Shown here piece by piece: positions 4,173-51,201 of a DNA stretch of 64,000 bases. Every line of letters starts with the position of its first letter. Position 1 is the first letter of the stretch. Where the stretch lies: NCBI GenBank assembly GCA_023150455.1, contig JAKLKW010000019.1:1-64000 (forward strand), in the 5' to 3' direction. The DNA is from Alphaproteobacteria bacterium. Its GTDB lineage: Bacteria; Pseudomonadota; Alphaproteobacteria; JAEULC01. The position numbers and the translations under genes are program-made. Under the pieces are notes generated by a model that worked only from the letters and a program-made list of their open reading frames with translations, was not told the origin of the DNA and searched no databases.

Positions 4173-5624
4173 ATGACGCTGATCGAAACGCGCCCCACCG
4201 AAGCACCGCCGGACGAGGAGCCGCCGCTCTACGCCAACCGCGTGAAGGTGTACCCGAAGGCCGTCAGTGGACCGTTTCGCAAGCTGAAATGGGCCGTACT
4301 AATCGTTTGCCTCGCGGTCTACTACCTCGCGCCCTGGCTGCGCTGGGACCGCGGCCCGGGGCATCCCGACCAGGCGCTGCTGATCGACATGGAAGCGCGC
4401 CGCGCCTATTTCTTCTGGATCGAGATCTGGCCGCAGGAAGTCTACTACCTGACCGGCCTCTTGATCCTCGGTGCGATCGGCCTGTTTCTGGTGACGAGCC
4501 TGCTCGGGCGCGTGTGGTGCGGGTATTCCTGCCCGCAGACGGTCTGGACCGATCTCTACATGTGGATCGAGCGCCTGATCGAGGGCGACCGCAACGCGCG
4601 CATACGCCTGGACAAGGCGCCGTGGACGGCAAGCAAGCTGGCGCGCAAGACCCTGAAGCACGCGCTATGGCTCGTCATCGCCGCGCTCACCGGCGGCGCC
4701 TGGGTCATGTATTTCAACGACGCGCCGACGCTGGCGCGCGACGTGATGAACCTGAACGTGTCCGGCGGGGTGCTGTTCTTCGCCGCGCTGTTCACGTCGA
4801 CCACCTATCTGCTCGCCGGCTGGGCGCGCGAGCAGGTCTGCACCTACATGTGCCCGTGGCCGCGCTTCCAGGCGGCAATGTTCGACCGCGAGACGCTGAT
4901 CGTCACCTACGAGGCGTGGCGCGGCGAGCCGCGCGGCAAGCACCGCAAAGGCGAGGCCGCCAAGAGCCTGGGCGACTGCGTCGATTGCGGCCAGTGCTAT
5001 CAGGTGTGCCCGACCGGGATCGACATCCGCGACGGCCAGCAGTTGGAGTGCATCGGCTGCGCTTTGTGCATCGACGCCTGCAACGTCGTCATGCGGAAGG
5101 TCGGCCTGCCGGCCAATCTGATCGCTTACGACACGGTCGCCAACCAGCAGGCGCGCGCATCGGGCGGCGTGTCGCGCTGGCGCCCGGTCCGGCCGCGCAC
5201 CATGATCTACGCGGCGCTGCTGCTGGTGGTCGGCGCGGCCATGCTGCTGGCGCTGGCCCTGCGTTCGACGCTCGACATCAACGTCCTGCGCGACCGCAAC
5301 CCGCTGTTCGTGACGCTGAGCGACGGGTCGATCCGCAACGGGTATACGATCAAGATCCTGAACAAGGCGCGCGAAGAGCGCAGCTTCGTGCTGACGGTCG
5401 ATGGCATTCCGTCCGGCGAGATGCAGCTGGCCGGGCACGAGAGCGCGGCCGAATCGGCGAAGCTGACGGTCAAGCCCGACACGGTCGGCACGTTCCGCGT
5501 GTTCTTGCGTGCCCCGCGCGCGAGCCTGCAGACCGAGTCCCTGCCGATCACCTTCGGTCTCAAGGAAACCGCGACCGGCGAGACGGCGCGCCACAGCTCG
5601 GTCTTCGTCGGGCCGGAGCATTGA
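4173..5624 (+). CDS. ccoG: cytochrome c oxidase accessory protein CcoG (FixG/RdxA)
   Basis: Polyferredoxin motifs (WCGYSCPQTVWTDLYMWIE, CTYMCPWPRFQAAMFD, CVDCGQCYQVCPTGIDIRDG); upstream part of the 3300 ORF is antisense/off-frame. Confidence 0.93.
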   Translation: MTLIETRPTEAPPDEEPPLYANRVKVYPKAVSGPFRKLKWAVLIVCLAVYYLAPWLRWDRGPGHPDQALLIDMEARRAYFFWIEIWPQEVYYLTGLLILGAIGLFLVTSLLGRVWCGYSCPQTVWTDLYMWIERLIEGDRNARIRLDKAPWTASKLARKTLKHALWLVIAALTGGAWVMYFNDAPTLARDVMNLNVSGGVLFFAALFTSTTYLLAGWAREQVCTYMCPWPRFQAAMFDRETLIVTYEAWRGEPRGKHRKGEAAKSLGDCVDCGQCYQVCPTGIDIRDGQQLECIGCALCIDACNVVMRKVGLPANLIAYDTVANQQARASGGVSRWRPVRPRTMIYAALLLVVGAAMLLALALRSTLDINVLRDRNPLFVTLSDGSIRNGYTIKILNKAREERSFVLTVDGIPSGEMQLAGHESAAESAKLTVKPDTVGTFRVFLRAPRASLQTESLPITFGLKETATGETARHSSVFVGPEH

Positions 5625-5634
5625 GAGGGCTTCC

Positions 5635-6129
5635 ATGAACGCCGTCGCCAAGCCCCGTCCGTCCGACCGCCTGATCCCGTGGCTGTTCGTGCTCGGCTTC
5701 CTTGTCGTGTTCGCCGTCAACGCGGTGATGGTGACGATCGCGCTCGGCAGCTTCTCGGGTCTCGTGACGGACCGCGCCTACGACCGCGGCCGCGCATACA
5801 ACCGCACGCTAGAGGCGCGCGCCGCGCAGGAAGCCCTGGGCTGGCAGGTGCGACTCGGCGTCGTGCCGGCGGAACCCGGTATCGTGCGGCTGACGGTCGA
5901 GGCTGCCGACCGCGGCGGCGCCCCGCTGTCCGGGGCCACGGTGACGGCAACGCTGGTCCGCCCGATCGAGCCGGGGCACGACCGTGCGGTGGACCTGACG
6001 GAGCGCGGCGCGGGCCGCTACGGCGCAACGCTGCCGGTCGACCTCGCCGGACAATGGGAGGCACGCATCACCGTCGCACGCGGCCAGGACCGCTATCAGG
6101 CCGCGCGGCGCGTGATCGTGCCCCGGTAG
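5635..6129 (+). CDS. ccoH: FixH/CcoH family protein
   Basis: N-terminal TM plus periplasmic domain (GLVTDRAYDRGRAYNRTLEA); between ccoG and ccoI. Confidence 0.88.
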   Translation: MNAVAKPRPSDRLIPWLFVLGFLVVFAVNAVMVTIALGSFSGLVTDRAYDRGRAYNRTLEARAAQEALGWQVRLGVVPAEPGIVRLTVEAADRGGAPLSGATVTATLVRPIEPGHDRAVDLTERGAGRYGATLPVDLAGQWEARITVARGQDRYQAARRVIVPR

Positions 6130-6130
6130 C

Positions 6131-8506
6131 ATGATCGCCAACGCCGCCGCCAGGACGGCACCTGCCTGCGCCCATTGCGGCGCGCGGCTTGGCGCTTCCG
6201 AGACCGCGCGGTTCTGCTGCAGCGGCTGCGCGCAGGCGCACGCGCTGATCGAGCGGCTGGGCCTCGACTCCTACTATGCTCGGCGCGTGCTCGATCCGGA
6301 CGCGCGCGCGCCCAAGCCCGAGCCCGAAAGCGCCTTGCTCGCGGCCGATCCGCCTGCGGCCGACGCGGACGGCATCGCCACCGGCCACTACATGGTGGAC
6401 GGGCTGCACTGCGCGGCCTGCGTATGGCTGATCGAGCAGTCGCTGCTGCACCAGCCCGGCGTGATCTCGGCGCGCCTCAACATGACCACGCGCCGCTTGG
6501 CCCTGCGCTGGAAGCCGGCCGAGGCGGCGGGTGATCCGTCGGCCGTCGTCGCGCGGCTCGGCTATCGCCTGGCGCCGTTCGACGCGGCGCGCCTGGCCGG
6601 CGCCGACCGGGGCGCGGAGTCCGAGCTGCTGCGCTGCCTGGCGGTTGCGGGCTTCGCCGCCGGCAACATCATGCTGCTGTCGGTCTCGGTGTGGTCGGGC
6701 GCCGTCGGCGAGATGGGCCCGGCGACGCGGGACCTGATGCATTGGATCTCGGCCCTGATCGCGCTGCCGGCCGTCGCCTATGCCGGCAGGCCGTTCTTTC
6801 GTTCGGCCGTCGCCGCGCTCGGCGCCGGGCGAACCAACATGGACGTGCCGATCTCGCTCGGCGTGCTGCTCGCGACGGCCATGAGCCTGTTCGAGACGGC
6901 GGCGAGCGGTGCGCATGCCTATTTCGATTCGGCGGTCACGCTGCTGTTCTTCCTGTTGATCGGGCGCTACCTGGACCGGCGCGCGCGCGGCCGTGCGCGC
7001 GGCGCGGCCGAGCTGCTGGCGGCCCTCGATGCCGCCACGGCCGGCGGGCTCGCCGCCGACGGCACGATCACGAGGGTCGCCGCCGACAAGCTGCGCCTCG
7101 GCGACCTCGTGCTGGTCGCGGCGGGTGAGCGCGTGCCGGCCGACGGCCGGGTCGTCGCCGGCAGGTCCGAAATCGACACGTCCGTCGTCACCGGCGAGTC
7201 GCAGCCGGTGGCGGTCGCGGCCGGCGACGCGGTCTTCGCGGGAACGGTGAACCTGGGCGCACCGCTGCGCCTGGAAGTGACCGCTTGCGGCAAGGGCACG
7301 CTCTTGTCCGAGATCGTGCGCCTGATGGAGGCGGCCGAGCAGGGCCGCGCGCGGCATGTCGCGCTCGCCGACCGCGTTGCACGGCTCTACGCGCCGGTCG
7401 TGCATCTGCTGGCGGCGGCGACGTTTGCCGGCTGGATGCTGCTGGACGCGGGCTGGCACGCGGCGCTCATGAACGCGGTGGCGGTGCTGATCATCACCTG
7501 CCCCTGCGCGCTCGCGCTTGCCGTGCCCGTGGCGCAGGTGATCGCGACGGGGCGGTTGATGCGCCGCGGCATCCTGCTCAAGAACGCCACGGCGCTGGAG
7601 CGCCTGGCCGACATCGACACCATCGTCTTCGACAAGACCGGCACCTTGACCGAGGGCCGGCCGGCGCTGGTCGAGCCGCGCGCGGTGGACACGGCGGCCC
7701 TGGCGCGTGCGGCTTCGATCGCCGCCAACAGCCGGCATCCGCTCGCGCGCGCCCTGACCGCTTCGGCCGAAGCGCGCCTCGGCCACGCCGTCGCCGCGAC
7801 CGAGGGCGTCGTCGAGGTGCCTGGTCAGGGCCTGGCGCTGGGCGAGGAACGGCTGGGCAGCCGCGCGTTCTGCAGCGTCGACGGGGACGAGCCTGCCACG
7901 GGCGGCGACGGACCCGAGCTCTGGTTTGCGCGCCCTGGCCTGCGCCCGGTGCGCTTTCTCTTCGCCGACCGGCTGAAGGCCGATGCGGCAGCGTGCGTGG
8001 GCTTGCTCGCCCGACACGGCTTCGCCTTGGAGCTTCTGTCCGGCGATCGCGCACCGGTGGTCGCGACGGTTGCCGCCGAGGCCGGGCTCACGCAATGGCG
8101 CGCGGCGCAGACGCCCGTCGACAAGGTGGCGCGGCTGAAGCAGCTGTCCGGCGAAGGGCGCAAGACGCTGATGGTCGGCGACGGCATCAACGATGCGCCG
8201 GCGCTGGCAGCGGCGCTGGTGTCGGCCTCGCCGGCCGCCGCCAGCGACATCGCGCGCGTGGCGGCGGACGCCGTGTTCCAGGGCGACCGGTTGGGCCCGG
8301 TCGCCGAGCTGCTGGACGTTGCGCGCAGGGCGCAGCGCGTGGTGCGCGAGAACCTGGCGCTGGCGATCGGCTACAATCTCGTTGCCGTGCCGCTGGCGAT
8401 GGCGGGGTTCCTGACGCCGCTCATCGCCGCCATTGCCATGTCCGGATCGTCGCTGGTCGTGGTGGTCAACGCGCTGCGACTGAATCGCGATCGGACGCGG
8501 GGCTGA
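6131..8506 (+). CDS. ccoI: Cu+ translocating P-type ATPase for cbb3 biogenesis
   Basis: CPCALALAVP, DKTGTLTEG, MVGDGINDAPAL motifs; N-terminal Cys-rich metal-binding region. Confidence 0.95.
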   Translation: MIANAAARTAPACAHCGARLGASETARFCCSGCAQAHALIERLGLDSYYARRVLDPDARAPKPEPESALLAADPPAADADGIATGHYMVDGLHCAACVWLIEQSLLHQPGVISARLNMTTRRLALRWKPAEAAGDPSAVVARLGYRLAPFDAARLAGADRGAESELLRCLAVAGFAAGNIMLLSVSVWSGAVGEMGPATRDLMHWISALIALPAVAYAGRPFFRSAVAALGAGRTNMDVPISLGVLLATAMSLFETAASGAHAYFDSAVTLLFFLLIGRYLDRRARGRARGAAELLAALDAATAGGLAADGTITRVAADKLRLGDLVLVAAGERVPADGRVVAGRSEIDTSVVTGESQPVAVAAGDAVFAGTVNLGAPLRLEVTACGKGTLLSEIVRLMEAAEQGRARHVALADRVARLYAPVVHLLAAATFAGWMLLDAGWHAALMNAVAVLIITCPCALALAVPVAQVIATGRLMRRGILLKNATALERLADIDTIVFDKTGTLTEGRPALVEPRAVDTAALARAASIAANSRHPLARALTASAEARLGHAVAATEGVVEVPGQGLALGEERLGSRAFCSVDGDEPATGGDGPELWFARPGLRPVRFLFADRLKADAAACVGLLARHGFALELLSGDRAPVVATVAAEAGLTQWRAAQTPVDKVARLKQLSGEGRKTLMVGDGINDAPALAAALVSASPAAASDIARVAADAVFQGDRLGPVAELLDVARRAQRVVRENLALAIGYNLVAVPLAMAGFLTPLIAAIAMSGSSLVVVVNALRLNRDRTRG

Positions 8507-37279: not shown

Positions 37280-38407
37280 TTAGCCGATGCGCAGCACGGG
37301 CTCGCCCAGCGCATCCATCAGCGGCACGACGCCGAGCCCCGACGCGGCCGAGGCGGCGAGCGTGCCTTCGCGCCGCTTGGGCGCGCCGACGGCGATCGGC
37401 CTCGTGACGTAGCTGTTGAAGTCGGTCGCCGCGAACAGGAACTCCGGCGCCGTCGAATGCGCGAGATGCGCGATCGCCGCGGTGACGATGTCGCCGCCCC
37501 AGGTGTCCTCGATGATCATGGCGAGGCCGAGCGACTGGCAGAGGTCGCGGATCTGCCGCGCCTTGGTGAGGCCGCCGACCTTGGAGATCTTGAGATTGAC
37601 CACGTCGGCGGCGCGGTCCTGCGCCGCGCGCAGCACCATCCCCACGCCGTCGATCACCTCGTCGAGGATGAACGGGCGCTGTGTGCGCTCGCGGATCGCG
37701 CGGCATTCCTCGTAGCTGGGGCAGGGCTGCTCGATATAGACGTCGACGTCCTTGACCGCGTCGACCACGCGCGTCGCCTGGTGCATCAGCCAGCCCGTGT
37801 TGGCGTCGGCTATCAGCACGTCGCCGGGCTTGAGCTTCTCGGCGCAGGCCTTGATACGCTCGATATCGGTGTCCGGGTCGCCGCCGACCTTGAGCTGGAA
37901 CTTCGAGTAGCCTTCCTTGCGGTAGTCGCCGACGCGGCCCGCCATCTGCTTCGCGCTCTCCTGCGAGATGGCGCGATAGAGCCGGAACGAATCGCCGTGC
38001 GCGCCGCCGAGCAGGGTCGCGACCGGCAGGCCGGCGATCTTGCCGGTGATGTCCCAGCAGGCCATGTCGAGCGCCGACTTGACATAGGGATGACCGCGCA
38101 TCGCCTGGTCCATGCGCCGGTTGAGCGCGCCGAGCGCGGTCGGATCCTGCCCGATCAGCGCCGGCGCCAGCTCCTTGATGCCGGCGCGGGCGCCGGCGGC
38201 GTAGGCCGGCAGGTAGGCAGGGCCGAGCGGACAGACCTCGCCATAGCCGGTCACCCCGGCATCGGTTTCGACCGCGACCACCGTGCTGTCGAACACCGTC
38301 ACCTGGTTCCCGCCCGACCATTTGTAGCTGCCCTCGTGCAGCGGCAGCTCGACGCGCCAGGCGCTGATCTGGGTGATGCGCGGATGGGACTTGGCAGATG
38401 CGGTCAT
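37280..38407 (-). CDS. mandelate racemase/muconate lactonizing enzyme family protein
   Basis: Enolase-superfamily motifs ([41 protein letters not shown]). Confidence 0.93.
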
Positions 38408-38430
38408 GGATGGCGGTCTCCGGCGGCGGA
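38342..38430 (-). repeat. R1: 5' end of the MR/MLE gene plus leader, intact copy
   Basis: About 90% identical by eye to 45588-45675, same orientation. Confidence 0.9.
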
Positions 38431-38504
38431 AGGGCTGAGAGGATTACGCGACCCGTGCCGGTCTGTCACGCCGGGCCGCCGCGACGGCCGCACCGCAACG
38501 AGAT

Positions 38505-38536
38505 GCGGGCGGGGCGCCGTGTAGCATCCCGCCCGC
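38505..38536. terminator. GC-rich inverted repeat between aioA and the MR/MLE gene
   Basis: GCGGGCGGG-N14-CCCGCCCGC perfect arms; no T-tract, so terminator function is uncertain. Confidence 0.4.
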
Positions 38537-38565
38537 CGGATAGGGAAACAGAGTCAGGACCGCGT

Positions 38566-40975
38566 TCAGCCAGTGCGGTATTCCTGCGACTTGAAGCTCA
38601 GCCGCCGCGTCACTTCCGGCGCGTCGGCGATCTTTCGGATATTGGCCCAGGTCTGCTTGTAGTTCGGGATCACCAGCTCGTTGACGCCGGCGTTGATCAC
38701 GTTGCCTTGGACGCCGGTCGGATATGCGAAGAGCATGAAGGTCTGGCCGCGCTTCGCCGATGCCGTGGGCTGCACCATCGCCTGGGTCGACCCGGCCTCG
38801 TTGTAAACCTCGACCAGATCGCCCGCCTGCAGCGAGAGTTCCTTCATGTCGTCCGGATTCATCTCGATGAAGGGGAACGGCATGCGATCCATCACGAAGT
38901 CGTTGTGCTGGTCCATGAAGGCGTTCTGCCAGACGATGTTGGCCCGGCCGTTATTGATGAGGAACTTGTTCTTCGCCTTCTGCTCCGCCTTGCCGGCAGC
39001 CTGCAAGCCGCGCCAGGGGGTCGCCATGAAGCGGGCCTTGCCATCCTTCGTGCTGAACTTGCCGTCGGCATAGAGACGTTGCGTGCCGACGATCTTGTTG
39101 TCCCGGAACCCGGTCGCCGGCTCCTGGAAGCCGTTGTTGCCCATGGCCCGCAGGCGGGCATAGGTGACATGCTGCCCGCCTTCCGCGTGCTTGTTGTAGC
39201 CGTCCATGAAGGCGTCTTCTTCGCTCTTCCAGTCGTAGCCCTTGAACTGCTCGGCGTACTTGGCATTGCCCTGCTCGCGGAAGACGCGCTCCAAAGCTCG
39301 AGCCAGGGCCGCGGCGATCAGGCAGTCGGGCTTGGCCTGGCCGGGGGGGTCGGCGTAACGCTCGGTCAGGCGCATGCGGCGCTCGCCGTTCATCGACGTC
39401 AGATTCATCTCGCCGGCGACCGCCGCGGGCAGCCACACATGGCTCGCCTGGCCGATTTGGGTCGGCACGATGTCGACGTCGACCGAGAACAGGCCGCCCT
39501 GACGGATCGCCACCATGATCGCATCGACCATGGCTTTGCGGTCACCCCAGGGCACGGTGTTCATGGCGTCCTTCACCATGTCGGTGCGCCGCTTGTAGAC
39601 CTGCTTGAACTTGTGGGCGTTCAACGTGGTCTTGTAGTGGTCGCAGGCCCAGACGTGGTGCACGCCACCGCGGCCTTCGATGAGAAGCTTGTCGACATAG
39701 GCCGCCGGGCGGCCGACATGGGCGTCGGAGGGCCGCACGTAGCCTTCCTGATGGCCGCCGAGGCGGACAACGCCGCCACCGGGCCGGCCGACATTGCCCG
39801 TCGCCAGGGCAAGGTTGGTGATCGCCCCGTTGGTGCGATAGTTGTCGTTGCCCCAAATGATGCCCTTCTCGTAGCCGAACATCGTCCGGCGGCGCTTGCC
39901 GCCTTCCTTCGGCTCCGCGATCCAGTGCGCCGCCTTGCGCATGTCCTCGACCTTGAGGCCGGTGATCTTGGCCGCGTCCTCGAGCGAGGTCTTGTTGGTG
40001 GCCAGCGTCGTGGCGAAATCGGTGAGCTCGCCGCCACCGGCCGCGCCACCGCCGGGGCGGGCGGGAACCATGGCCGCGCCGGCAGCGGCAGCCAGAGTGT
40101 GGGCGGCGATGAACTGCTTGTCGACCCAGCCTTTCTCGGCGATGTAGGTCAGCAGCGCGTTGAACAGGACCAGGTCGGTCCCGGACTCGAGCGCCAGGTG
40201 CAGCACGTTGTCCTTGCCCGCCTCCGTCTCGCAGGCGGCGACCGTCACCGTGCGTCGTGGATCGACGATGACGATCTTGGCTGGTGCGTGCGCCTCGCCC
40301 GGCAGTTGCTGTTTCTTCTTGTCCATGGAGGTTCCCCGGAGATTGGGAACCCAATGGTTCAGGAAGTAGTTGGTTTGCGTCTCGAGCGGATTGGTGCCGA
40401 TCGCGACGATCGTGTCGGCAAGCTCGGCATCCTCGTAGCAATTGTTGAGCTCGCCGACGCCCATGTCCCGCGTGGCGTGAACCTCGGAGTTGTAGGCCGG
40501 CCTGTTGTGGATGCGGACGTTCTTGACCTTCATGGAGCCGAAATAGAGCTTGCCGGTGCCCCAGGTGTTCTCGTAGCCGCCTGCGGAGCCGCCATGATCG
40601 AACATCGACACGAACAGACCGTCCTCGCTGCGGCGAGGTGTGGTTTTCGGCCATCCGCGCCCCGCGGATCGACCCGAGCCCCGAGTTCACGACGCAGCCG
40701 ACGTCCGGCTTGATGACGAGGTGAACGTCCTGGCCGTTCTGCTTGACGATGTTGTACATCGACGGCGGGTACCAGGCCGGCGTCTCCGCGCCCTGCTGCT
40801 TGGCGAGGTCCACCCCGAACTTGTTCTGGCTCGGCGCGAAGCCGCCCTGCCGATTGGCGGGCCAGCTATAGGCCTTGTAGCCGCAGCCGACGATGCAGTA
40901 GTGGCAGGTGACGTTGTGTTCCTTGGCGTCGGCCGGGATGATCGGAAGCCGATCGACTTGCCGCTTGAAGGTCAT
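38566..40975 (-). pseudogene. aioA: arsenite oxidase large subunit, apparently disrupted by internal deletion and frameshift
   Basis: N-terminus (MTFKRQVDRLPIIPADAKEHNVTCHYCIVGCGYKAYSWP...GSIRGARMAEN) and remainder (SEDGLFVSMFDHGGSAGGYENTWGTGKLYF...) lie in different frames that meet near 40630. Confidence 0.85.
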
Positions 40976-40986
40976 GGCAGCCCTCC

Positions 40987-41508
40987 TCAAAGCACGTTGG
41001 AAAGCCGGCCGTACAGGAGCTCGTCGACCCCTTCGGCGTAAATGTCGCCCTTGGCGTCGACGCGCAGCGTGAACTGGGCCAGGTTCTGCGTCGCGTGTCC
41101 CCAGATCTGCTGGCCGCCCTTTTCGCAATCGAAGCGACCGTAGTGCCCGGGGCAGTTGAGCGTCTTGTCGGCCGCGACGTAGTTGAGCGGGAAGCCCTTG
41201 TGGGGACACAAGGTCGAGAACGCGACGACGTCGCGTTCCGGCCCGACGCCGCCTTCGACCGCGCGGCCGAGCTTCAGCAGGACGCCCGGGGAGTCCGCGT
41301 CGGGATAGGCGATGTCGACCGGCTGGTCGACCTTCAGATCCTTCACGTTGCCCAGCTTGGCGCCGGGATAGGCGACGCGGGCCAATGTCGGCGCTGCTTC
41401 GGCCCGGTTGGCCACGAACGTGGCGGCTGCGACGCCGGCAGCCGCGATGCCGCCGCCGCGCAGGAAATGACGGCGGCCGATCTCGGCCATCCGATGGCAC
41501 TTGGTCAT
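40987..41508 (-). CDS. aioB: arsenite oxidase small (Rieske) subunit with Tat signal
   Basis: RRHFLRGGG Tat motif; Rieske CPH...CPGH; C-terminal EGVDELLYGRLSNVL. Confidence 0.95.
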   Translation of the reverse strand: MTKCHRMAEIGRRHFLRGGGIAAAGVAAATFVANRAEAAPTLARVAYPGAKLGNVKDLKVDQPVDIAYPDADSPGVLLKLGRAVEGGVGPERDVVAFSTLCPHKGFPLNYVAADKTLNCPGHYGRFDCEKGGQQIWGHATQNLAQFTLRVDAKGDIYAEGVDELLYGRLSNVL

Positions 41509-41556
41509 GCGTGTCCTCCCACCCGACCGTGTGAACAGGTCTTGCCGGCGGGAAGA

Positions 41557-41571
41557 GCAAGCTGCGGACCA
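41557..41571 (-). promoter_or_regulatory. sigma-54 (-24/-12) promoter candidate for aioB
   Basis: Minus strand TGGTCCGCAGCTTGC: GG-N10-GC spacing, 49-63 bp upstream of the aioB ATG. Confidence 0.75.
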
Positions 41572-41668
41572 GCGCGGCAGTCCCTGGCGCGTCAGGGGCT
41601 TAACGATGACGCCGCGGTCCGGCGCCGGTCAGGACGTTCGGAGATCCGGACGCGCCGGCGGGCGCGAT

Positions 41669-41684
41669 GTTCGGGACGCCGAAC
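41669..41684. promoter_or_regulatory. palindrome GTTCGGGACGCCGAAC, candidate upstream activator site
   Basis: 6-bp perfect arms, 4-bp spacer, about 100 bp upstream of the sigma-54 element, just after the aioR stop codon. Confidence 0.4.
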
Positions 41685-41687
41685 GGC

Positions 41688-43034
41688 TCAGGCTTCGCCT
41701 TCGGGGTTCAGGCCGAGCCGCCGCATCTTCTCCCACAACGTCGTGCGCGAGATGCTCAGCAGCTCCGCCGCCTTGCCGACCTGCCCGCCCGTGCGCTCGA
41801 GGGCGGACAGGATGTGGCGGCGCTCGGCTTCGTCGCGCGCCTCGGCCAGCGACATCGATTCGGCGCCGGCCGGCGCGGCTGCGTTGCCGGGCACGGCCTC
41901 CGGGAACAGCGCCGGCGCATCGACCAAGGATGCATCGCTGAGCGCGACCGCTCGCTCGATCCGGTTGCGCAGCTCGCGCACGTTGCCGGTCCAGGCATGG
42001 GTGCGCATCGCTTCGCGGGCGGCGAGCGTGAACCCGCGGACGTCGCGGCCGAACAGGTCGCAGAACTCGTCGAGGAACCGCCGCGCCAGACCCGGGATGT
42101 CCTCCTGCCTCTGCCGGAGCGGCGGGATCGCCACCGGAATCACGTTGACGCGGTAGTAGAGGTCCTCGCGGAAGCGCCCGTCGCGCACGCGCGCATCGAG
42201 ATCGGCGTTGGTGGCGCAGAACAGCCGCGCGCGGAACTCGACCGGCCGCTCGCCGCCGACGCGGAAGAACACGCGCTCCTGCACCAGGCGCAGCAGCTTG
42301 GCCTGCACGGCCGGCGGCAGCTCGGCGACCTCGTCGAGGAACAGTACGCCGTCGCGCGCGCGCTCGGCATAGCCTTCGTGCCGGCTGGTCGCGCTGGTGA
42401 AGGCGCCGCGCTCGTGGCCGAACAGCTCGCTGTCGATCAGCTCGGGCGGGATGGCGGCGCAGTTGACCGCCATGAACGGCTTGACCGCGCGCGGTGAGAT
42501 CCGATGGACGAAGCGCGCGGCCACTTCCTTGCCGACGCCGCTTTCGCCCGTGAACAGCAGGTTGCTGTCGATGTCGCCGACGCGCCGCAGCAGCGTCTCG
42601 ATCCGCCGCATCGGCGCTGACGTGCCGAGAACCGCATCTTCGCCCGGGTGCAGGGCGTCGTGCTGCTCGAGCAGGCGGTCGATGCGCGCGAGGAACTCCG
42701 GTAGGTCGAAGGGCTTGGTGATGTAGTCGTCGGCACCTTCGCGGATCAGCCGCACGGCCTGGGGAATCTCGCCGTAAGCGGTCATGAACAGGACGGGCAC
42801 GTCGCGCAAGCGCGCGCGGGCGCGCTGGAACAGCTCCTCCCCGTTCATGTCGGGCAGGCGGATGTCGCAGATGACGAGATCGGGACGCTCAGCCGAGAGC
42901 CCGGCCAGCGCTTCGCCGCCGGTCTGCCACCAGATCGGCGCGTGCTTTTCCAGCGACAGGCGTTGCACCAGGGACTCGCCCATGATCGGGTCGTCCTCGA
43001 TCACCGCGATGCGACAGGACTTAAGCGACTGCAT
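41688..43034 (-). CDS. aioR: sigma-54 dependent response regulator
   Basis: Receiver, AAA+ (GESGVGKE, GVLFLDEVAELP), Fis-type HTH; between aioS and aioB. Confidence 0.9.
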   Translation of the reverse strand: MQSLKSCRIAVIEDDPIMGESLVQRLSLEKHAPIWWQTGGEALAGLSAERPDLVICDIRLPDMNGEELFQRARARLRDVPVLFMTAYGEIPQAVRLIREGADDYITKPFDLPEFLARIDRLLEQHDALHPGEDAVLGTSAPMRRIETLLRRVGDIDSNLLFTGESGVGKEVAARFVHRISPRAVKPFMAVNCAAIPPELIDSELFGHERGAFTSATSRHEGYAERARDGVLFLDEVAELPPAVQAKLLRLVQERVFFRVGGERPVEFRARLFCATNADLDARVRDGRFREDLYYRVNVIPVAIPPLRQRQEDIPGLARRFLDEFCDLFGRDVRGFTLAAREAMRTHAWTGNVRELRNRIERAVALSDASLVDAPALFPEAVPGNAAAPAGAESMSLAEARDEAERRHILSALERTGGQVGKAAELLSISRTTLWEKMRRLGLNPEGEA

Positions 43035-44472
43035 CGAGCCGTTCTCCCTTCGTGACGGGAACGACAATCGCGAGCGTCGTTCCTTTGCCCGGCGCAGTCC
43101 GGATCGCGACCGTGCCGCCGATCCGGTTCAGCAGCCGCGCCGCGGTCCACAGGCCCAGCCCGACCTTGGCGCTGGGCGCTTCCGGCGATGCGCTGCCGAG
43201 CAGCGCCGCCATGTCGGGCGGGAGGCCGGGCCCTTCGTCGCCGATCTCGAACCGGACACTGTCGCCGTCGCGCGCCGCCGCGACCCGCACACACCCGCCG
43301 ACCGGCGAGGCCGCGCAGGCGTTGAGCAGCAGGTTGAGCACGATCTGCCTGACTGCGGCGCCGTCGACCTGCAGCGTCGCCGGCAGGGAATTGTGCCAAT
43401 CGAGCCGGATCCTCCGCCGGACGGTCTCGTGCCGGACCAGGTAGCGCAGGTCGTCGATGTCGCCATGCGTCAGCCGGTCCGGCTGGTCGCCGCCCTTGTA
43501 GGTCACCAGCGCCGCGCGCACGACGTTCCTGATGCCGGTGAGCCCGCGCTCCAGCAGGTCCAGCGACCGGCGCCGGACGTCGACGTCGTCGCCGTGCTTC
43601 CTCAGCGTATCGACCGCGTTCACCATGCCGCCGAGCGGGTTGTTCACCTCGTGCGCCATGCTGGAGGTGAGCTTGCCCAGAAGATAGACCTTCTCCTCGC
43701 CCGCCAGCCGCTGCGCCAGCGCCTCGCGTTCGCCGATGGCGGCCGCCATCGCGTTGAATCGGTGGAACAAGCGGCCGAACTCGGTGCGCTCGTCGCCCAG
43801 CCGCTCCTGCGGGATCGCCTCGACCCGGCCGCCGCGCAAGCGCTCGACATGGACGCCCAGCAGCTTGATCGGGCCGACCATCCGCCGCGTCATGGCGTAG
43901 CCGACGACGGCGAACAGCAGCGCCAAGCCGGCGTTGAAGAGCACGAGCGTGCGCAGCACCTCGCGGCGCACCTGCAGCAGCTTGGCGATGTCGACCTCGG
44001 CGATCAGGTGCCCGATCAGCGTGCCGCTGTCGAGCAGCGGGCGATGCAGCAGCGCCGTTTTCTGCGCATCGTCGATCACGAGCTGCCGGCGATCGTCCAG
44101 CCGCCCAGCCAGCGCGGCGGTCACCGGATCGCCGACCGGGAAGCTGCGCGGGTCGGACGAGGCCAGCACCGAGCGTCCCGGCAGGGCCACGATGGCGTAG
44201 CGCAGGGTCAGGCCGGCATACCGGCCGCGCGCGCGGTCGAGCGCGTCGAAGGCCTCCCAGACGTCCTGACGCAGCACGGCGGGCGCGATCGCGGTCGACA
44301 GCCCGTCGAGATAGGCGCCGGCCAGCTCGCTGAGATGCGCTTCCTGATCCGACGTCAGGCGGCGGAGGATGACCGTGGACATCGCCGTCGCGACCAGGAT
44401 CATCAGGACAGCCACCGCCGCGGGCACCCTGACGGTCAGCGGCCAGGTCAGCGGCGATCGCCAGCGGGTCAC
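43021..44472 (-). CDS. aioS: sensor histidine kinase
   Basis: Two TM, HAMP, HisKA (LTSSMAHEVNNPLGGMVNAVDTL), HATPase; GTG start at 44472; overlaps aioX and aioR. Confidence 0.9.
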   Translation of the reverse strand: MTRWRSPLTWPLTVRVPAAVAVLMILVATAMSTVILRRLTSDQEAHLSELAGAYLDGLSTAIAPAVLRQDVWEAFDALDRARGRYAGLTLRYAIVALPGRSVLASSDPRSFPVGDPVTAALAGRLDDRRQLVIDDAQKTALLHRPLLDSGTLIGHLIAEVDIAKLLQVRREVLRTLVLFNAGLALLFAVVGYAMTRRMVGPIKLLGVHVERLRGGRVEAIPQERLGDERTEFGRLFHRFNAMAAAIGEREALAQRLAGEEKVYLLGKLTSSMAHEVNNPLGGMVNAVDTLRKHGDDVDVRRRSLDLLERGLTGIRNVVRAALVTYKGGDQPDRLTHGDIDDLRYLVRHETVRRRIRLDWHNSLPATLQVDGAAVRQIVLNLLLNACAASPVGGCVRVAAARDGDSVRFEIGDEGPGLPPDMAALLGSASPEAPSAKVGLGLWTAARLLNRIGGTVAIRTAPGKGTTLAIVVPVTKGERLDAVA

Positions 44473-45359
44473 ACCTGCTTCCTCACGAAGTCGTACTTGG
44501 CGGCGATGCCGTCGAACAGCGCGTCGTCGGGCGCGCCGAAGCGGTCCAGCCGCAGCATCGCCAGCACTCTGCGGCCAAGCGGATGATCGCTCATGCTCAA
44601 GAGGGCATGGCCGAGGCCACGCACGTTGGCCGACGACTCGTAGTTCCTGTTGCAGGCGACGGGGGGAAAGCCCAGCCATTCCGATTTTCGGATCACCCTT
44701 GTCTGCCGCGTGAGATCCGGATCGATCTCGGCGACGACCTCCCAAACGTAACCGTCCACGCTGCCGCTGTGGGCCAGCCCGGCGGCGACGGCGCGGATCA
44801 CGTTGCGGTGCCCGTAGGTGTAGAAGGTTCGCGAGAAGAACGAGGCCGGGCTTTCGCCCATCGTCGCCAGCAGATGGCGGGTCACCAGGAAGCCCGAGTT
44901 GCTGTCCGGGTCCGAGAAGGCGTGGATCTTCCCGCGCAGGTCCTCGACCGACCGGGCCGGGTCGTTCGCGTTGACGACGATGTAGGACTGGTAGCGTCCC
45001 TGGCCGTGATGGATCGGTATGGCCACGAGCGATAGCCGCTCGCGGTACTGGACGTAGGGGAAGCCGCAGATCCACGCGGCGTCGATCTGGCCGGACAGCA
45101 GCAGCGCGGTCATTTCCTGATAGGTGCGCCGCTTCACCAGCGCCACGTCGCGCCCGAGGCTCTCGCTCAGGTACTGCTCGAGCACCGTCAGCAGCTCGAG
45201 GTCCGAATCGAGAAAGACGGGCGTCAGGCCGAACGTCGCCGGCGCGGCGACGCGTGCGACAGCCGCCGGCGACGCCAACAGGACGCCGGCGGCGGCGCCG
45301 AGGAATCGGCGCCGCGACGTTCGCGGCGGCAGTTCTTCCGGCAGGGCGTGCCGGGACAT
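44469..45359 (-). CDS. aioX: periplasmic arsenite-binding protein (PhnD-like)
   Basis: Signal sequence SRRRFLGAAAG; QIDAAWICGFPYVQY; PhnD-type fold; first gene of aioXSR. Confidence 0.9.
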   Translation of the reverse strand: MSRHALPEELPPRTSRRRFLGAAAGVLLASPAAVARVAAPATFGLTPVFLDSDLELLTVLEQYLSESLGRDVALVKRRTYQEMTALLLSGQIDAAWICGFPYVQYRERLSLVAIPIHHGQGRYQSYIVVNANDPARSVEDLRGKIHAFSDPDSNSGFLVTRHLLATMGESPASFFSRTFYTYGHRNVIRAVAAGLAHSGSVDGYVWEVVAEIDPDLTRQTRVIRKSEWLGFPPVACNRNYESSANVRGLGHALLSMSDHPLGRRVLAMLRLDRFGAPDDALFDGIAAKYDFVRKQV

Positions 45360-45478
45360 TTCCTCACCCGTTTCGCGCCGTCGCTGCTCCGCGGCGCCTC
45401 TCGGTCCTCCACCGAGGTTAGTTCCTCACCGCCCACTCCGCAAAGGTCAATCCGCCCGGTGAATGCCGCAATCGCCAA

Positions 45479-45590
45479 CTACCCGATCCGGGACGGCATC
45501 AGGAGCGTGCGCTGGAGCGGGCTCTTGTTGTCGTCGGACATCAGCCACCGCAGCGCGGCGCCCGCATCGGGGCCGTCTCGGGGGCCGCGG
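45479..45590 (-). repeat. R2': remnant of the 3' end of the phytase-like gene
   Basis: About 92% identical by eye to 50230-50341; encodes [34 protein letters not shown] (intact: [34 protein letters not shown]). Confidence 0.9.
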
Positions 45591-45675
45591 CAGCTCCACG
45601 CGCCAGGCGGTGACCTGGGTGATGCGCGGATGGGACTTGGCGAATGCGGCCTTGGATGGCGGTTTCCGGCGGCGA
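45588..45675 (-). repeat. R1': remnant of the 5' end of the MR/MLE gene, fused to R2'
   Basis: Encodes [18 protein letters not shown] (intact: [18 protein letters not shown]); ATG replaced; joined to R2' at GCGGC microhomology. Confidence 0.9.
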
Positions 45676-45872
45676 TTCGGCAGGACTGCGGCCACCAGCG
45701 ACTTGAGCGGCAGGTCCTGAGCCACCTGCCCGATTCCCCACAGCATGATCCCCGGAACGAGGGCGAGGATCCGGTTCCCGGCCGCCGGGCGGCGATGAGA
45801 CCGCCTGGTCTGGCGGTAGTCGCCGATCGATGACATGATCGCGACCGGTCATACGCCACTGCGGCCCGAACC

Positions 45873-46211
45873 ATGCGCAACCGCCACGTCGCCAGCCAGA
45901 GAAGCGCGAGCGACAACCAGCTCTACTCGGGCCTGATCCGGCTGCACATCCTGCACCATGCCGTGCGCGAGCCGATCTTCGGCACCGGCATCATGGAGGA
46001 GCTGGCCCGCCACGGGTACAAGCTGAGCGCCGGCACGCTCTACCCGCTGCTCCACGGGCTGGAGGCGCGCGGCTACCTGCGCTCCCGCCAGGAGCGCAAC
46101 GGGCGCAGCGCGCGCCGGCTCTATCGTGCCACCCCGGCCGGCAGGCGCGCGCTGGCAGAGGCCAGGGAGAAGGTCCGCGAGCTGTTCGGGGAGCTGTTCG
46201 AAGACGACTGA
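45873..46211 (+). CDS. PadR family transcriptional regulator
   Basis: LYSGLIRLHILHHAVREPIFGTGIMEELARHGYKLSAGTLYPLLHGLEARGYL. Confidence 0.9.
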   Translation: MRNRHVASQRSASDNQLYSGLIRLHILHHAVREPIFGTGIMEELARHGYKLSAGTLYPLLHGLEARGYLRSRQERNGRSARRLYRATPAGRRALAEAREKVRELFGELFEDD

Positions 46212-46224
46212 TGCCGGTAGCGCG

Positions 46225-47013
46225 TCAGGCGATGCCCGCGGCCAGCGCCAGGCCGAGTGCGATCATCATCGCGGCCACGAGGATCTGAACGAAACGAAGC
46301 GTCACTTTCTTCAAGAGACGCGCCCCGAGCCAGGCTCCCAGAAAGGCGCTGGCCGTCCCCACCGCGACAGCCGCGAGTACGTGGCGGTCCAAGGCGGCGA
46401 ACTGCGCGGTGTAGAACGACAGGCCGTAGGCGACGAGCCGGACCGTATCCACGATCACCGTCGACACCACGCCGGTGCCGATGAAGGCCTCTTTTGTCAG
46501 GCCCGCCTTGATGAGAAAGGCCGTCCGGAACGCGCCCTGGTTGCCGGTCAGGCCGCCGAAGAAGCCGGAGATCAGCCCGCCCAGAATCAGCAGACGCGGC
46601 GGGACTGCGAGATTCTCCAGGCGGGACGACAGCTCCAGGCTGGCGAAGGCGACGATCAGCAGCCCGACCGTCAGCTTGAGTACGGAAACCTCGTGGGCGG
46701 CGCCGGCGAAATGATAGGTCGCGAGCGGCGGCAGCCCGGCGAACACGGCCAGGAGGCGGGCGCCGAGGATGGCCGCGAGCGCCGCGGGAAGCCCAAACCG
46801 CAGCACGGCCCCCCAGTCCGCCTGCCGCCCGATCAATCCCACCTTGAACAGGTTGTTGGCCAGATGCACTACCGCGGTCGCCGCGATCGCCACTGGCACT
46901 GGAAAGAACAGCGCGAACACCGGCATCAGGACGGTGCCGAGCCCGAAGCCGGAGAACAGCGTCAGGCCCGATACGGCAAGGGCCGTTGCGGCAATGACCG
47001 CGTATTCAGCCAT
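46225..47013 (-). CDS. TauE/SafE family sulfite exporter-like permease
   Basis: FSGFGLGTVLMPVFALFFPVPVAIAATAVVHLANNLFK; GLISGFFGGLTGNQGAFRTAFL. Confidence 0.9.
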   Translation of the reverse strand: MAEYAVIAATALAVSGLTLFSGFGLGTVLMPVFALFFPVPVAIAATAVVHLANNLFKVGLIGRQADWGAVLRFGLPAALAAILGARLLAVFAGLPPLATYHFAGAAHEVSVLKLTVGLLIVAFASLELSSRLENLAVPPRLLILGGLISGFFGGLTGNQGAFRTAFLIKAGLTKEAFIGTGVVSTVIVDTVRLVAYGLSFYTAQFAALDRHVLAAVAVGTASAFLGAWLGARLLKKVTLRFVQILVAAMMIALGLALAAGIA

Positions 47014-47112
47014 GCCGGGCGCCTTCTCATGCAGTCGCCGAGACGATCGGATCCGCTCCGGGCCGATCCGCCGCTGACAGGCAAGTCGCAGGCGTCGGTC
47101 GGGATCCGCTCT

Positions 47113-47628
47113 TCAATTGTGGAAGAGCGGGGCCTGCTTGATCGCGGGAATCCCGACTTGGATGAACTCCACCTTTTCCGCCGTGTGGCACGCGTTGCAG
47201 GCGGCGCGCAGGACGTCGAAGCGCTCCTTGAAGAGAGCGATGTCCTTCTTCTTGATCGCGTCCAACACGTTCGGGTATGCCACCTTCAGGAAGATCTCTT
47301 CGGCATTGGCACGACGCTTGGGTCGGCGCTCGTATCCATTCATGATGGCCCATGCGATCTTTTCGCCCGTATAGCGCGCATAGTCCCAGTTGCCCTCGAT
47401 GGCGCCGAAATACATTTCCGTGTAGCGATAGTTCACCTCGAACATTGCCATGTCGAATCCGCGGAGCTGGCGGTCGATCGCTTCCGTCTGCTTGTCCGGC
47501 GGCAGCGCCTTGAGCCAGCCGCCCGCCTGCGGCGGGTTCGGGACCTGGGCCTGCACGGTGGCGAAGCCGACAAGGGAGGCGACGGCGACGATCCCCATAA
47601 TGGCGCGCGGTCGGCGTAAGTCCATCAT
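47113..47628 (-). CDS. c-type cytochrome-like exported protein
   Basis: Signal peptide; single C-terminal CNACH motif. Confidence 0.75.
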   Translation of the reverse strand: MMDLRRPRAIMGIVAVASLVGFATVQAQVPNPPQAGGWLKALPPDKQTEAIDRQLRGFDMAMFEVNYRYTEMYFGAIEGNWDYARYTGEKIAWAIMNGYERRPKRRANAEEIFLKVAYPNVLDAIKKKDIALFKERFDVLRAACNACHTAEKVEFIQVGIPAIKQAPLFHN

Positions 47629-47740
47629 GCGTACCTCCTAATCTTGGGGTTTGTGGTCCGGTGCCGCAGCCGATCATTCCACGGCGCGCTGCCGCACTTT
47701 CCCAGAGAAGTCCGCGGGACCGGATGGTGCTTGCATTGTC

Positions 47741-47768
47741 TATCGTATACCGATATCGAGAGTCGATA
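47741..47768. promoter_or_regulatory. tandem overlapping palindromes in the chrA/cytochrome divergent promoter
   Basis: TATCG-TATAC-CGATA (47741-47755) and TATCGA-GAG-TCGATA (47754-47768), sharing TA. Confidence 0.75.
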
Positions 47769-47796
47769 CGCCAATTTGACGCGGGGGGCAACGACC

Positions 47797-49062
47797 ATGG
47801 CAAATGACGCTCGAGTGGCCGAGGCGCATGCGACGGCGCGCCGGCACCATCGCCATCGCCGGCCGCTCGGCGAGATCTTCCTGGTATTTCTCCGCCTGGG
47901 GCTGACCTCGTTCGGCGGGCCGATCGCGCATCTGGGGTATTTCCGCGACGAGATCGTCAACCGCCGGAAATGGATGGACGACCACGGCTACGCCGACCTG
48001 GTGGCGCTGTGCCAGTTCACGCCCGGTGCCGCCAGCAGCAAGGTCGGAATCGGCGTCGGCTTGGCGATGGGCGGGCTGCCGGGCGGCATCGCCTCGTGGC
48101 TCGCGTTCACCCTGCCGTCGGCGCTGGCGCTGGTCCTGTTCGCCTATGGCGTCAGCACCTACAGCGATCTTCTCGATTCCGGGTTCCTGCACGGGCTGAA
48201 GGTGGTCGCGGTCGCGGTCGTGGCGCTGGCGGTCTGGGGCATGGCGCGCAACCTGTGCCCCGACCCGACGCGCGCGAGCCTGGCCATTGCCGCGGCCTGG
48301 GCATTCTCGCTGTGGCCGAGCTCGCTTGGCCAGATCGCCGCCATCGCGGGCGGCGGGCTGTTCGGCGTTCTGTTCCTCAAGGACACGCGCGACGGCGCGC
48401 ACGAACCGCTGCACGCCGGCGTTTCCAGGCTTGTCGGTGCGACGGCGCTGTTCCTGTTCTTCGGCCTGCTGGTCGGCCTGCCGGCCTTCGCGGCGGTTTA
48501 TCCTTCGCATGCGCTGGGGATGTTCGACAGCTTCTATCGCACCGGCTCGCTGGTGTTCGGCGGCGGGCATGTGGTGCTGCCGCTGCTGCAGTCCGAGGTG
48601 GTGCAGCCCGGCTGGGTCACGGGCGACACGTTCCTTGCCGGGTACGGCGCCGCCCAGGCGGTGCCGGGGCCGCTGTTCACTTTCGCCGGGTATCTAGGCG
48701 CCGTCATGGACCCGCAGCCCAACGGCTGGCTCGGCGCCGCAATCTGCCTGGTCGCGATCTTCCTGCCGTCGTTCCTGCTGACGCTCGGCGCGCTGCCGTT
48801 CTGGGAAGACCTGCGCCGCGTGCGACCGGTGCGCTCGGCGCTGCTGGGCGTCAACGCCGCCGTGGTCGGGCTGCTGCTGGCGGCGCTCTACAACCCGGTA
48901 TGGACCAGCGCGGTCAAGTCGCCGGCCGACTTCGCCCTGGCGGCGACGGGCTTTGCGTTGCTGGCGTTCTGGAAGTGGCCACCCTGGCTCGTGGTCATCC
49001 TGACGGCTGCCGGTGCCGCGGGCATCGAATCGCTGCCTGGCCTGCCGAGAGCCGGCGCCTGA
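47797..49062 (+). CDS. chrA: chromate efflux transporter, two-domain ChrA
   Basis: LGLTSFGGPIAHLGYFRDEIVNRRKW and FGGGHVVLPLLQSEVV; two CHR halves; start 47797. Confidence 0.93.
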   Translation: MANDARVAEAHATARRHHRHRRPLGEIFLVFLRLGLTSFGGPIAHLGYFRDEIVNRRKWMDDHGYADLVALCQFTPGAASSKVGIGVGLAMGGLPGGIASWLAFTLPSALALVLFAYGVSTYSDLLDSGFLHGLKVVAVAVVALAVWGMARNLCPDPTRASLAIAAAWAFSLWPSSLGQIAAIAGGGLFGVLFLKDTRDGAHEPLHAGVSRLVGATALFLFFGLLVGLPAFAAVYPSHALGMFDSFYRTGSLVFGGGHVVLPLLQSEVVQPGWVTGDTFLAGYGAAQAVPGPLFTFAGYLGAVMDPQPNGWLGAAICLVAIFLPSFLLTLGALPFWEDLRRVRPVRSALLGVNAAVVGLLLAALYNPVWTSAVKSPADFALAATGFALLAFWKWPPWLVVILTAAGAAGIESLPGLPRAGA

Positions 49063-49076
49063 CCGTCATCCCCGTC

Positions 49077-50165
49077 GTGGCCCGCCGACCCGGGCCGGCG
49101 ATTCTGCGCCCGTTCGGCGCGTTGCGGCTCATATTGGCGCTGTTGGTGGTCGTCTACCATTTCGGGATCGACCTGGCGCCGTCCTGGATGGCGAGCCGGA
49201 TCGTGCCGCTCGGTCCCGGCAACGCCGCCGTGATGATCTTCTTCATGCTGTCCGGCTTCATCATCCTCGAGGCCGTGACACATTTCTATGCAGGGCGGCC
49301 GATGCCGTTCCTCGTCAACCGCCTGCTGCGGCTGGTGCCGGGATTCCTGGCGGCGCTCGCACTATCGATCCTCGTGCATGCCGCGCTCTGGGCCGCGGGA
49401 ACGCTGCGCGCGATCGACGGGCGCGCCCTGCCGGCGGCGATCTTCTCCCCGACAAGCCTGTTCGAGAACGTCCTGTCGATCGTGCCCGGCCTGGATCGGC
49501 TGGGCCTCGAGGCCGCGTACGAGTTCCTGTTCCTGGTCTGGTCGCTGCGCGCGGAGTTCCTGTTCTATCTCGCCGTGTTCGCCGCGGTTGCGCTTGCGAC
49601 GGCACGTTTCCACGGCTTGGGTTACGAGCGGATGCTGCGCTGGAACTGGGGCGGGCTCGCCGGCGTCGCAGCGGTCGTCGGGACCCTGTCGCTGCTGGGG
49701 CGCGCGCCGAACCTCTTCCAGTTCGGCCCCTATTTCCTGTTCGGCGCTGCCGTATTCCTTGCGACGCGAGGCAGCCGCGCCGCCCTGGCCGCGGCGCTGG
49801 CCTCGATCCCGCTCATGGCGCTGCAGTTCTGGGACTACAACCCGGCCGTATATGCCGCGTACGGCCGCGACCGGCTGGGACAGTACTTGCTGATGGCCGC
49901 CCTGGCCGGGCTGTTCGCGTGGCTGGGCTGCCGGTCGTCGTGGCGGCCGGGCCGCTGGGACCGCATGCTGGGCGATCTTGCCTATCCGCTCTATCTGAAC
50001 CACCTGACCGTCGGCGTGCTCGCCCGATCGATCGCACCCGACCGTTCCGTGACGGCGGCGCTGCTCGCGTTCGCCGCCAGCATCGCGCTGGCTGCGCTGA
50101 TGCAAGCGATCGTCGAACCGCCCGTGCGCGCCTGGCGCAACCGCTGGCGCGGGGTCGCGATTTGA
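49077..50165 (+). CDS. acyltransferase family 3 (OafA-like) membrane protein
   Basis: LRLILALLVVVYHFGID; FFMLSGFIILEAVTHFYAGRPMPFLVNRLLRLVPGF; start codon uncertain. Confidence 0.85.
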   Translation: MARRPGPAILRPFGALRLILALLVVVYHFGIDLAPSWMASRIVPLGPGNAAVMIFFMLSGFIILEAVTHFYAGRPMPFLVNRLLRLVPGFLAALALSILVHAALWAAGTLRAIDGRALPAAIFSPTSLFENVLSIVPGLDRLGLEAAYEFLFLVWSLRAEFLFYLAVFAAVALATARFHGLGYERMLRWNWGGLAGVAAVVGTLSLLGRAPNLFQFGPYFLFGAAVFLATRGSRAALAAALASIPLMALQFWDYNPAVYAAYGRDRLGQYLLMAALAGLFAWLGCRSSWRPGRWDRMLGDLAYPLYLNHLTVGVLARSIAPDRSVTAALLAFAASIALAALMQAIVEPPVRAWRNRWRGVAI

Positions 50166-50229
50166 AGGTGTCGCGTCCACCGAGCCATGGGCAGGCCGCC
50201 ACTTGGCACGGCCGCGCCCCTTGGCGCGC

Positions 50230-50341
50230 CTACTCGATCCGGAACAGCATCAGGAGCGTGCGCTGGAGCGGGTTCTTGTTGTCGTCGGACATCAGCCACA
50301 GCAGCACGGCGCCTGCGTCGGGGCCGTCGCGGGGGCCGCGG
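50230..50341 (-). repeat. R2: 3' end of the phytase-like gene, intact copy
   Basis: Matches 45479-45590, same orientation. Confidence 0.9.
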
Positions 50342-51201
50342 CCGATCGCCATCGCTTCCATGTTGTCGACGGTCATCGAAGGCTCCCAGTCGGCCAGCAC
50401 CTCGCCGTAGAGCCGGCCGGCGGGCACGACGCGCTGGGCGGGAACGCGGATGACGCGCGCGCCCTGCGAGGCGAACAGCCCGTAGCGCCGTTCGAGCACC
50501 AGCAGATCGCCCGATGGCAGCACGACGGCATCGGTCGGCTGGTGCTCGCCCGAGAGGACGTAGCTGAGCTCGTGCCATTGGCCGCGGGCGCGCAGCCAGG
50601 CCTTGAGGTCGCCGCCATCGCTGCGCGCCAGTTCGCTGATCAGGAGAATCCGCCCGTCCGGCCAGGCGGCGATCGACTCGATGCCGCCGTTGCCGGGCTG
50701 CGAGGCCAGGTCGGCCGGTGCGTCCACCCGCTTGCCGGGCGCGCCGGGCGCGGCGTAGCGCAGCAGTCGGTGGTCGCGCTCGAAGCCGATCAGGAAGCCG
50801 CCGTCGCGCTCGCGACGCAGGCTTTCGGCGTCGGCCTGAAGCTTGCGCTTGAACGGCCGCCCGGCCTCGTCCTTCAGGGGCTCGATCTCGCCGTCGATGG
50901 CGCCGACCAGCCGCCCGTCCATGTCGAAGACGGGGCGGAACACCAGCCAATGCCCGAGATCGGACACCGCGACCAGGCGACCGTCGGGCAGCCGCTCCAA
51001 TCCCGAGTAGCCGCCGAAGCGGCGGTCCGGGCTCTTAAGGTGCAGGCCGCCGCGCCATTGGAGCCGGCCGACCTGCCGCACCTCGGGCCGGCCGGGCACG
51101 AGCTCGACCGGCGCCGCCTCGAGCCGGACCGGCTCCGCCGGGGCGGCGGCGGCGGCGGTGAACCAGACGAAACAGGCAACCAGAAGACGCGCGCGCATCA
51201 C
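50230..51201 (-). CDS. esterase-like activity of phytase family protein
   Basis: [61 protein letters not shown]. Confidence 0.88.

Follow-up and report, generated by a model that had tools for sequence, protein, structure and literature searches.

The aioA gene, which codes for the large subunit of arsenite oxidase, is broken in the 64,000-nt stretch analysed here (the window; contig JAKLKW010000019.1 of the alphaproteobacterial assembly GCA_023150455.1). Compared with its homologues the gene lacks 128 bp downstream of the [3Fe-4S] domain, the reading frame is shifted at that point, and the joint carries a short sequence, GCGAGG, which fits both sides. It is the single aioA of the genome. That a deletion in the organism itself, a polymorphic one included, gave rise to this allele appears rather likely.

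The two halves of the gene lie in different frames of the minus strand. The 5' part (40629..40975, minus strand) corresponds to AioA residues 1 to about 115-117 and contains the Rieske_3 [3Fe-4S] domain (Pfam PF18465, E 2.5e-43) with the sequence CHYCIVGC, which fits the C-x2-C-x3-C cysteine motif of the [3Fe-4S] cluster. It starts with an ATG at 40975, just downstream of a ribosome-binding site, GAGGAGG. The 3' part (38566..40626, minus strand) contains the molybdopterin and Mo-dinucleotide-binding domains (PF00384, PF01568) and is otherwise intact; its frame is open from 40686, the match to AioA begins at 40626 and the stop codon is at 38566. On the NCBIfam profile TIGR02693 the 5' part occupies positions 1-107 and the 3' part positions 149-806, leaving a hole of 41 positions. 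The 3' part scores 1044.7 bits and thus lies above the equivalog cut-off of 359, while the 156.7 bits of the 5' part alone are below this whole-protein cut-off, as expected for a fragment. In the alignment to NT-26 AioA that a preceding sequence-only reading had recommended, the two parts cover residues 1-114 and 159-844. A continuous full-length AioA frame of about 840 aa is absent, the break being located at 40623-40628. The frame opened by the aioA start codon (39542..40975, minus strand) comprises 477 aa. Its first 117 codons are AioA, and the about 360 C-terminal residues, up to the stop at 39542, are out of frame and unrelated to AioA. The predicted product of the start codon consequently has the [3Fe-4S] domain and no molybdopterin domains, and the 3' fragment, if ever translated, would lack the [3Fe-4S] domain.

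For a measure of the missing segment, 66 related loci were obtained from a scan of genome contigs, 65 of which span the deletion site. The distance between the RMAE and ED motifs is 147 bp in 64 of these and 150 bp in the remaining one, so that the frame is kept in all 65. In the window this distance is 19 bp. Hence 128 bp (3n+2) are absent and the frame is off by two, in good agreement with the 120-130 bp, not a multiple of three, that the sequence-only reading had estimated when it proposed an internal deletion with frameshift after the Fe-S domain. Related loci, TIGR02693 and NT-26 AioA all confirm this proposal. The absent protein segment is the linker after the [3Fe-4S] domain. It holds 13 positions that are invariant in 64 loci, among them those of W-x-D-A and LVxxVT, and includes the LVWRYGxMQPTSWDDAL-like stretch which that reading had named as lost.

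The neighbouring genes, all on the minus strand, are preserved, as had been stated from the sequence for the remainder of aioXSRB. Directly upstream of aioA lies aioB (40987..41508) for the Rieske small subunit, which has a TAT signal, covers TIGR02694 at positions 2-129 of 129 and is 68% identical to its counterpart in locus L012 over the full length. The regulatory genes aioX, aioS and aioR adjoin, so that AioA has its usual partners in the cluster. The sigma-54 response regulator gene aioR (41688..43067) is of full length according to Pfam and aligns to L012 over residues 2-456 of 459. For the sensor kinase gene aioS (43021..44480, start approximate), with HAMP, HisKA and HATPase_c domains, an alignment without stops to L014 extends over residues 212-674 of a 684-aa open frame. 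The gene for the periplasmic oxyanion-binding protein, aioX (44469..45359; PF12974), is of full length and 58% identical to that of L012. Judged by family membership and alignment, AioB, AioR and AioX are intact, and so is the kinase part of AioS. The genome also has a gene for the arsenite efflux protein Acr3, located on a different contig (G000 contig C262:35580-36566), and the organism may thus tolerate arsenite without oxidising it.

The deletion joint GCGAGG (40623..40628, minus strand) was compared with the relatives L012, L033, L013 and L029. The window reads CAG CGA GGA C at this position. On the left it matches the Q-R-G codons of relatives such as L012 (CGA GGC), on the right the G-E-D codons, which are GGC GAG GAC in L033, L013, L029 and L019 and GGC GAG GAT in L012. 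Of the 5-6 bp of microhomology, five have a direct match in L012, and the sixth has one in L033. With flanking bases taken from L012 and L033, the repeat would have stood at both ends of the lost segment and one copy would have been kept; we infer the left GCGAGG copy in this way, the lost sequence itself being unseen. When cuts were paired at random, 60-250 bp apart, in three aioA sequences (those of L012, L033 and the window), a microhomology of at least 5 bp occurred in 0.7-1.3% of the pairs and one of at least 6 bp in 0.24-0.48%. The left copy also forms the 3' arm of a perfect 6-bp hairpin, CCTCGC-CGCA-GCGAGG (40623..40638, minus strand). The list of perfect stems of this kind for the 2.4-kb gene has eleven entries, which makes the one at the joint only suggestive and weak by itself. 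Taken as a whole, the joint has the anatomy that slippage between short direct repeats would be expected to leave. In E. coli, deletions between such repeats that do not require RecA are documented (PMC5426353).

We lean towards a genuine recent deletion, because the joint shows microhomology of a short direct repeat, the contig around it is clean and no other lesions are seen. On this view the one aioA that the alphaproteobacterial genome has is probably a recently inactivated allele, formed as follows. Slipped mispairing (RecA-independent recombination) between two GCGAGG copies, sharing 5-6 bp and with the upstream copy lying in the 3' arm of the small hairpin, would have deleted 128 bp, thereby taking out the linker after the [3Fe-4S] domain and shifting the frame. 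Translation would then yield 117 correct residues with an out-of-frame tail of about 360 residues, and no molybdopterin domain. Presumably no arsenite oxidase is made from the aioA locus, although aioX, aioS, aioR and aioB remain.

The sequence downstream of the break gives little sign of age. The 3' part keeps 186 of the 188 columns that are invariant in 61 relatives, which is within the range of the other loci. Its NG86 dN/dS values against four relatives are about 0.10-0.21, although synonymous sites are nearly saturated. In relative-rate counts against L012 the chi-square lies between 0.1 and 4.5, depending on which of six outgroups is used; this means no acceleration in some and a borderline one in others, without consistency. 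Judging from these values there is no clear decay, and if the deletion is real, aioA was presumably functional until recently. With no decay in the rest of the gene, either the lesion arose very recently or it is an artefact.

The second of these possibilities is less likely in our view, but it deserves serious consideration. The organism's aioA would then be intact, and the joint would stem either from scaffolding or gap closing, in which two contig ends were linked through a spurious short overlap (GCGAGG), or from the collapse of a patch with low coverage or mixed strains. The source genome is probably a metagenome-assembled genome (MAG), since it shows typical features of one (279 contigs, 90% completeness and no 16S gene). 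A lesion without accompanying decay looks artefact-like, and a 6-bp overlap suits an overlap join equally well. Moreover, pseudogenes reported from public genomes are in many cases spurious, and such false pseudogenes are common and well documented in low-coverage assemblies (PMC11017572). Several observations nevertheless argue against an artefact. There is no run of N at the joint. No other frame breaks are found among the window genes that can be aligned to same-genus genomes, so the contig is not generally error-prone. A stray copy of the lost segment occurs on no other contig of the source assembly, and a search of that assembly found no second aioA. Furthermore, an overlap of 6 bp is much shorter than the k-mers with which de Bruijn assemblers work, and a plain collapse of the graph cannot produce such a joint. 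A chimera of two organisms was rejected, because both aioA halves share their nearest relatives (L012 and its neighbours). The choice between recent loss and assembly error, with which the sequence-only reading had ended, is what the evidence allows.

A sub-case of the real deletion is a population polymorphism, in which the sampled population carries both an intact and a deleted allele and the assembly represents the latter. A recent deletion without further decay would be expected to segregate, and MAGs are consensus sequences; however, a second allele was not seen in the assembly, and we regard this sub-case as unlikely. Although both frames stay open around the joint, a functional variant, i.e. 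a programmed frameshift or a split AioA naturally without the segment, is extremely improbable and effectively refuted. The segment is present and in frame in each of the 65 homologous loci, 13 of its positions being invariant in 64 of them; 42-43 residues would still be absent even with a frame change, and the two other broken aioA genes found break at other places. Homologues that naturally lack the segment and share a conserved frameshift, which the sequence-only reading had named as grounds to refute its proposal of a broken aioA, do not occur among these loci.

The aio cluster is located in a variable intergenic hotspot (38408-50229) between a hydroxyproline-dehydratase gene (cis-3-hydroxy-L-proline dehydratase; 37280-38407) and a phytase-like gene (50230-51201) that adjoins mutS. 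The gap between the two flanking genes is about 9 bp in the same-genus genome G003, 0.76 kb in G002, 1.9 kb in G001 and 11.8 kb here. None of these three genomes has an AioA orthologue, two of them giving weak matches of 30-32% identity, and accordingly the same lesion was not found in these close relatives. The first part of the 11.8-kb insert contains aioXSRBA, the second part genes for PadR, TauE/SafE and a chromate transporter. Between the two parts, bounding the aio cluster, lies a 196-bp remnant (45479..45674, plus strand), a fusion of copies of the 3' end of the phytase-like gene and the 5' end of the dehydratase gene. It consists of a 113-bp copy of 50230-50342 (92%) and a 91-bp copy of 38338-38428 (90%), which overlap by 8 bp. 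The remnant looks like the joint to be expected if the hotspot had been duplicated in tandem and its two copies carried different cargo, apparently aio in one and the chromate-transport module in the other.

We tentatively suggest, as an explanation of slightly less than even probability, that a lineage whose duplicated intergenic hotspot had taken up aioXSRBA has very recently ceased to oxidise arsenite, owing to one slippage deletion, but still possesses AioB and senses arsenite through AioXSR. If true, the window is a fresh snapshot of the loss of a horizontally gained trait. Surveys that count aioA by partial matches, using primers or HMMs for the molybdopterin domain, would place this genome among the arsenite oxidisers, but as assembled it cannot make arsenite oxidase; if the lesion is an artefact, the survey error is the reverse. 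The duplicated hotspot, which holds an aio module and a chromate-transport module, is mildly interesting with regard to the build-up of metal(loid) islands.

By sequence, both halves are clear members of the AioA family (TIGR02693; Rhizobium sp. NT-26, 4AAY/5NQD; Alcaligenes faecalis, 1G8J/1G8K), and the cluster order aioX-S-R-B-A is the same as in relatives. In contrast to the known AioA proteins, 128 bp are absent, the frame is shifted and no full-length product is encoded. A similar situation was described for Thiomonas CB1 and CB6, in which aioA on a genomic island carries a frameshift and the neighbouring aio genes remain (PMC4589449). These strains, however, have a second aio copy that is expressed (PMC4589449), whereas only one aioA is found here. 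Two further broken aioA genes, both alphaproteobacterial single-locus frame breaks, occur among the 66 loci. In L071 (Methylobrevis pamukkalensis PK2; 4524-7053) the frameshift is near residues 349-358. In L077 (Rhodospirillum sp. MAG; 4524-6284) it is near 271-279, and about residues 575-804 are lost in addition. Both differ in position from the break in the window, whose aioA adds a further case to a type of event already known, an ordinary inactivation.
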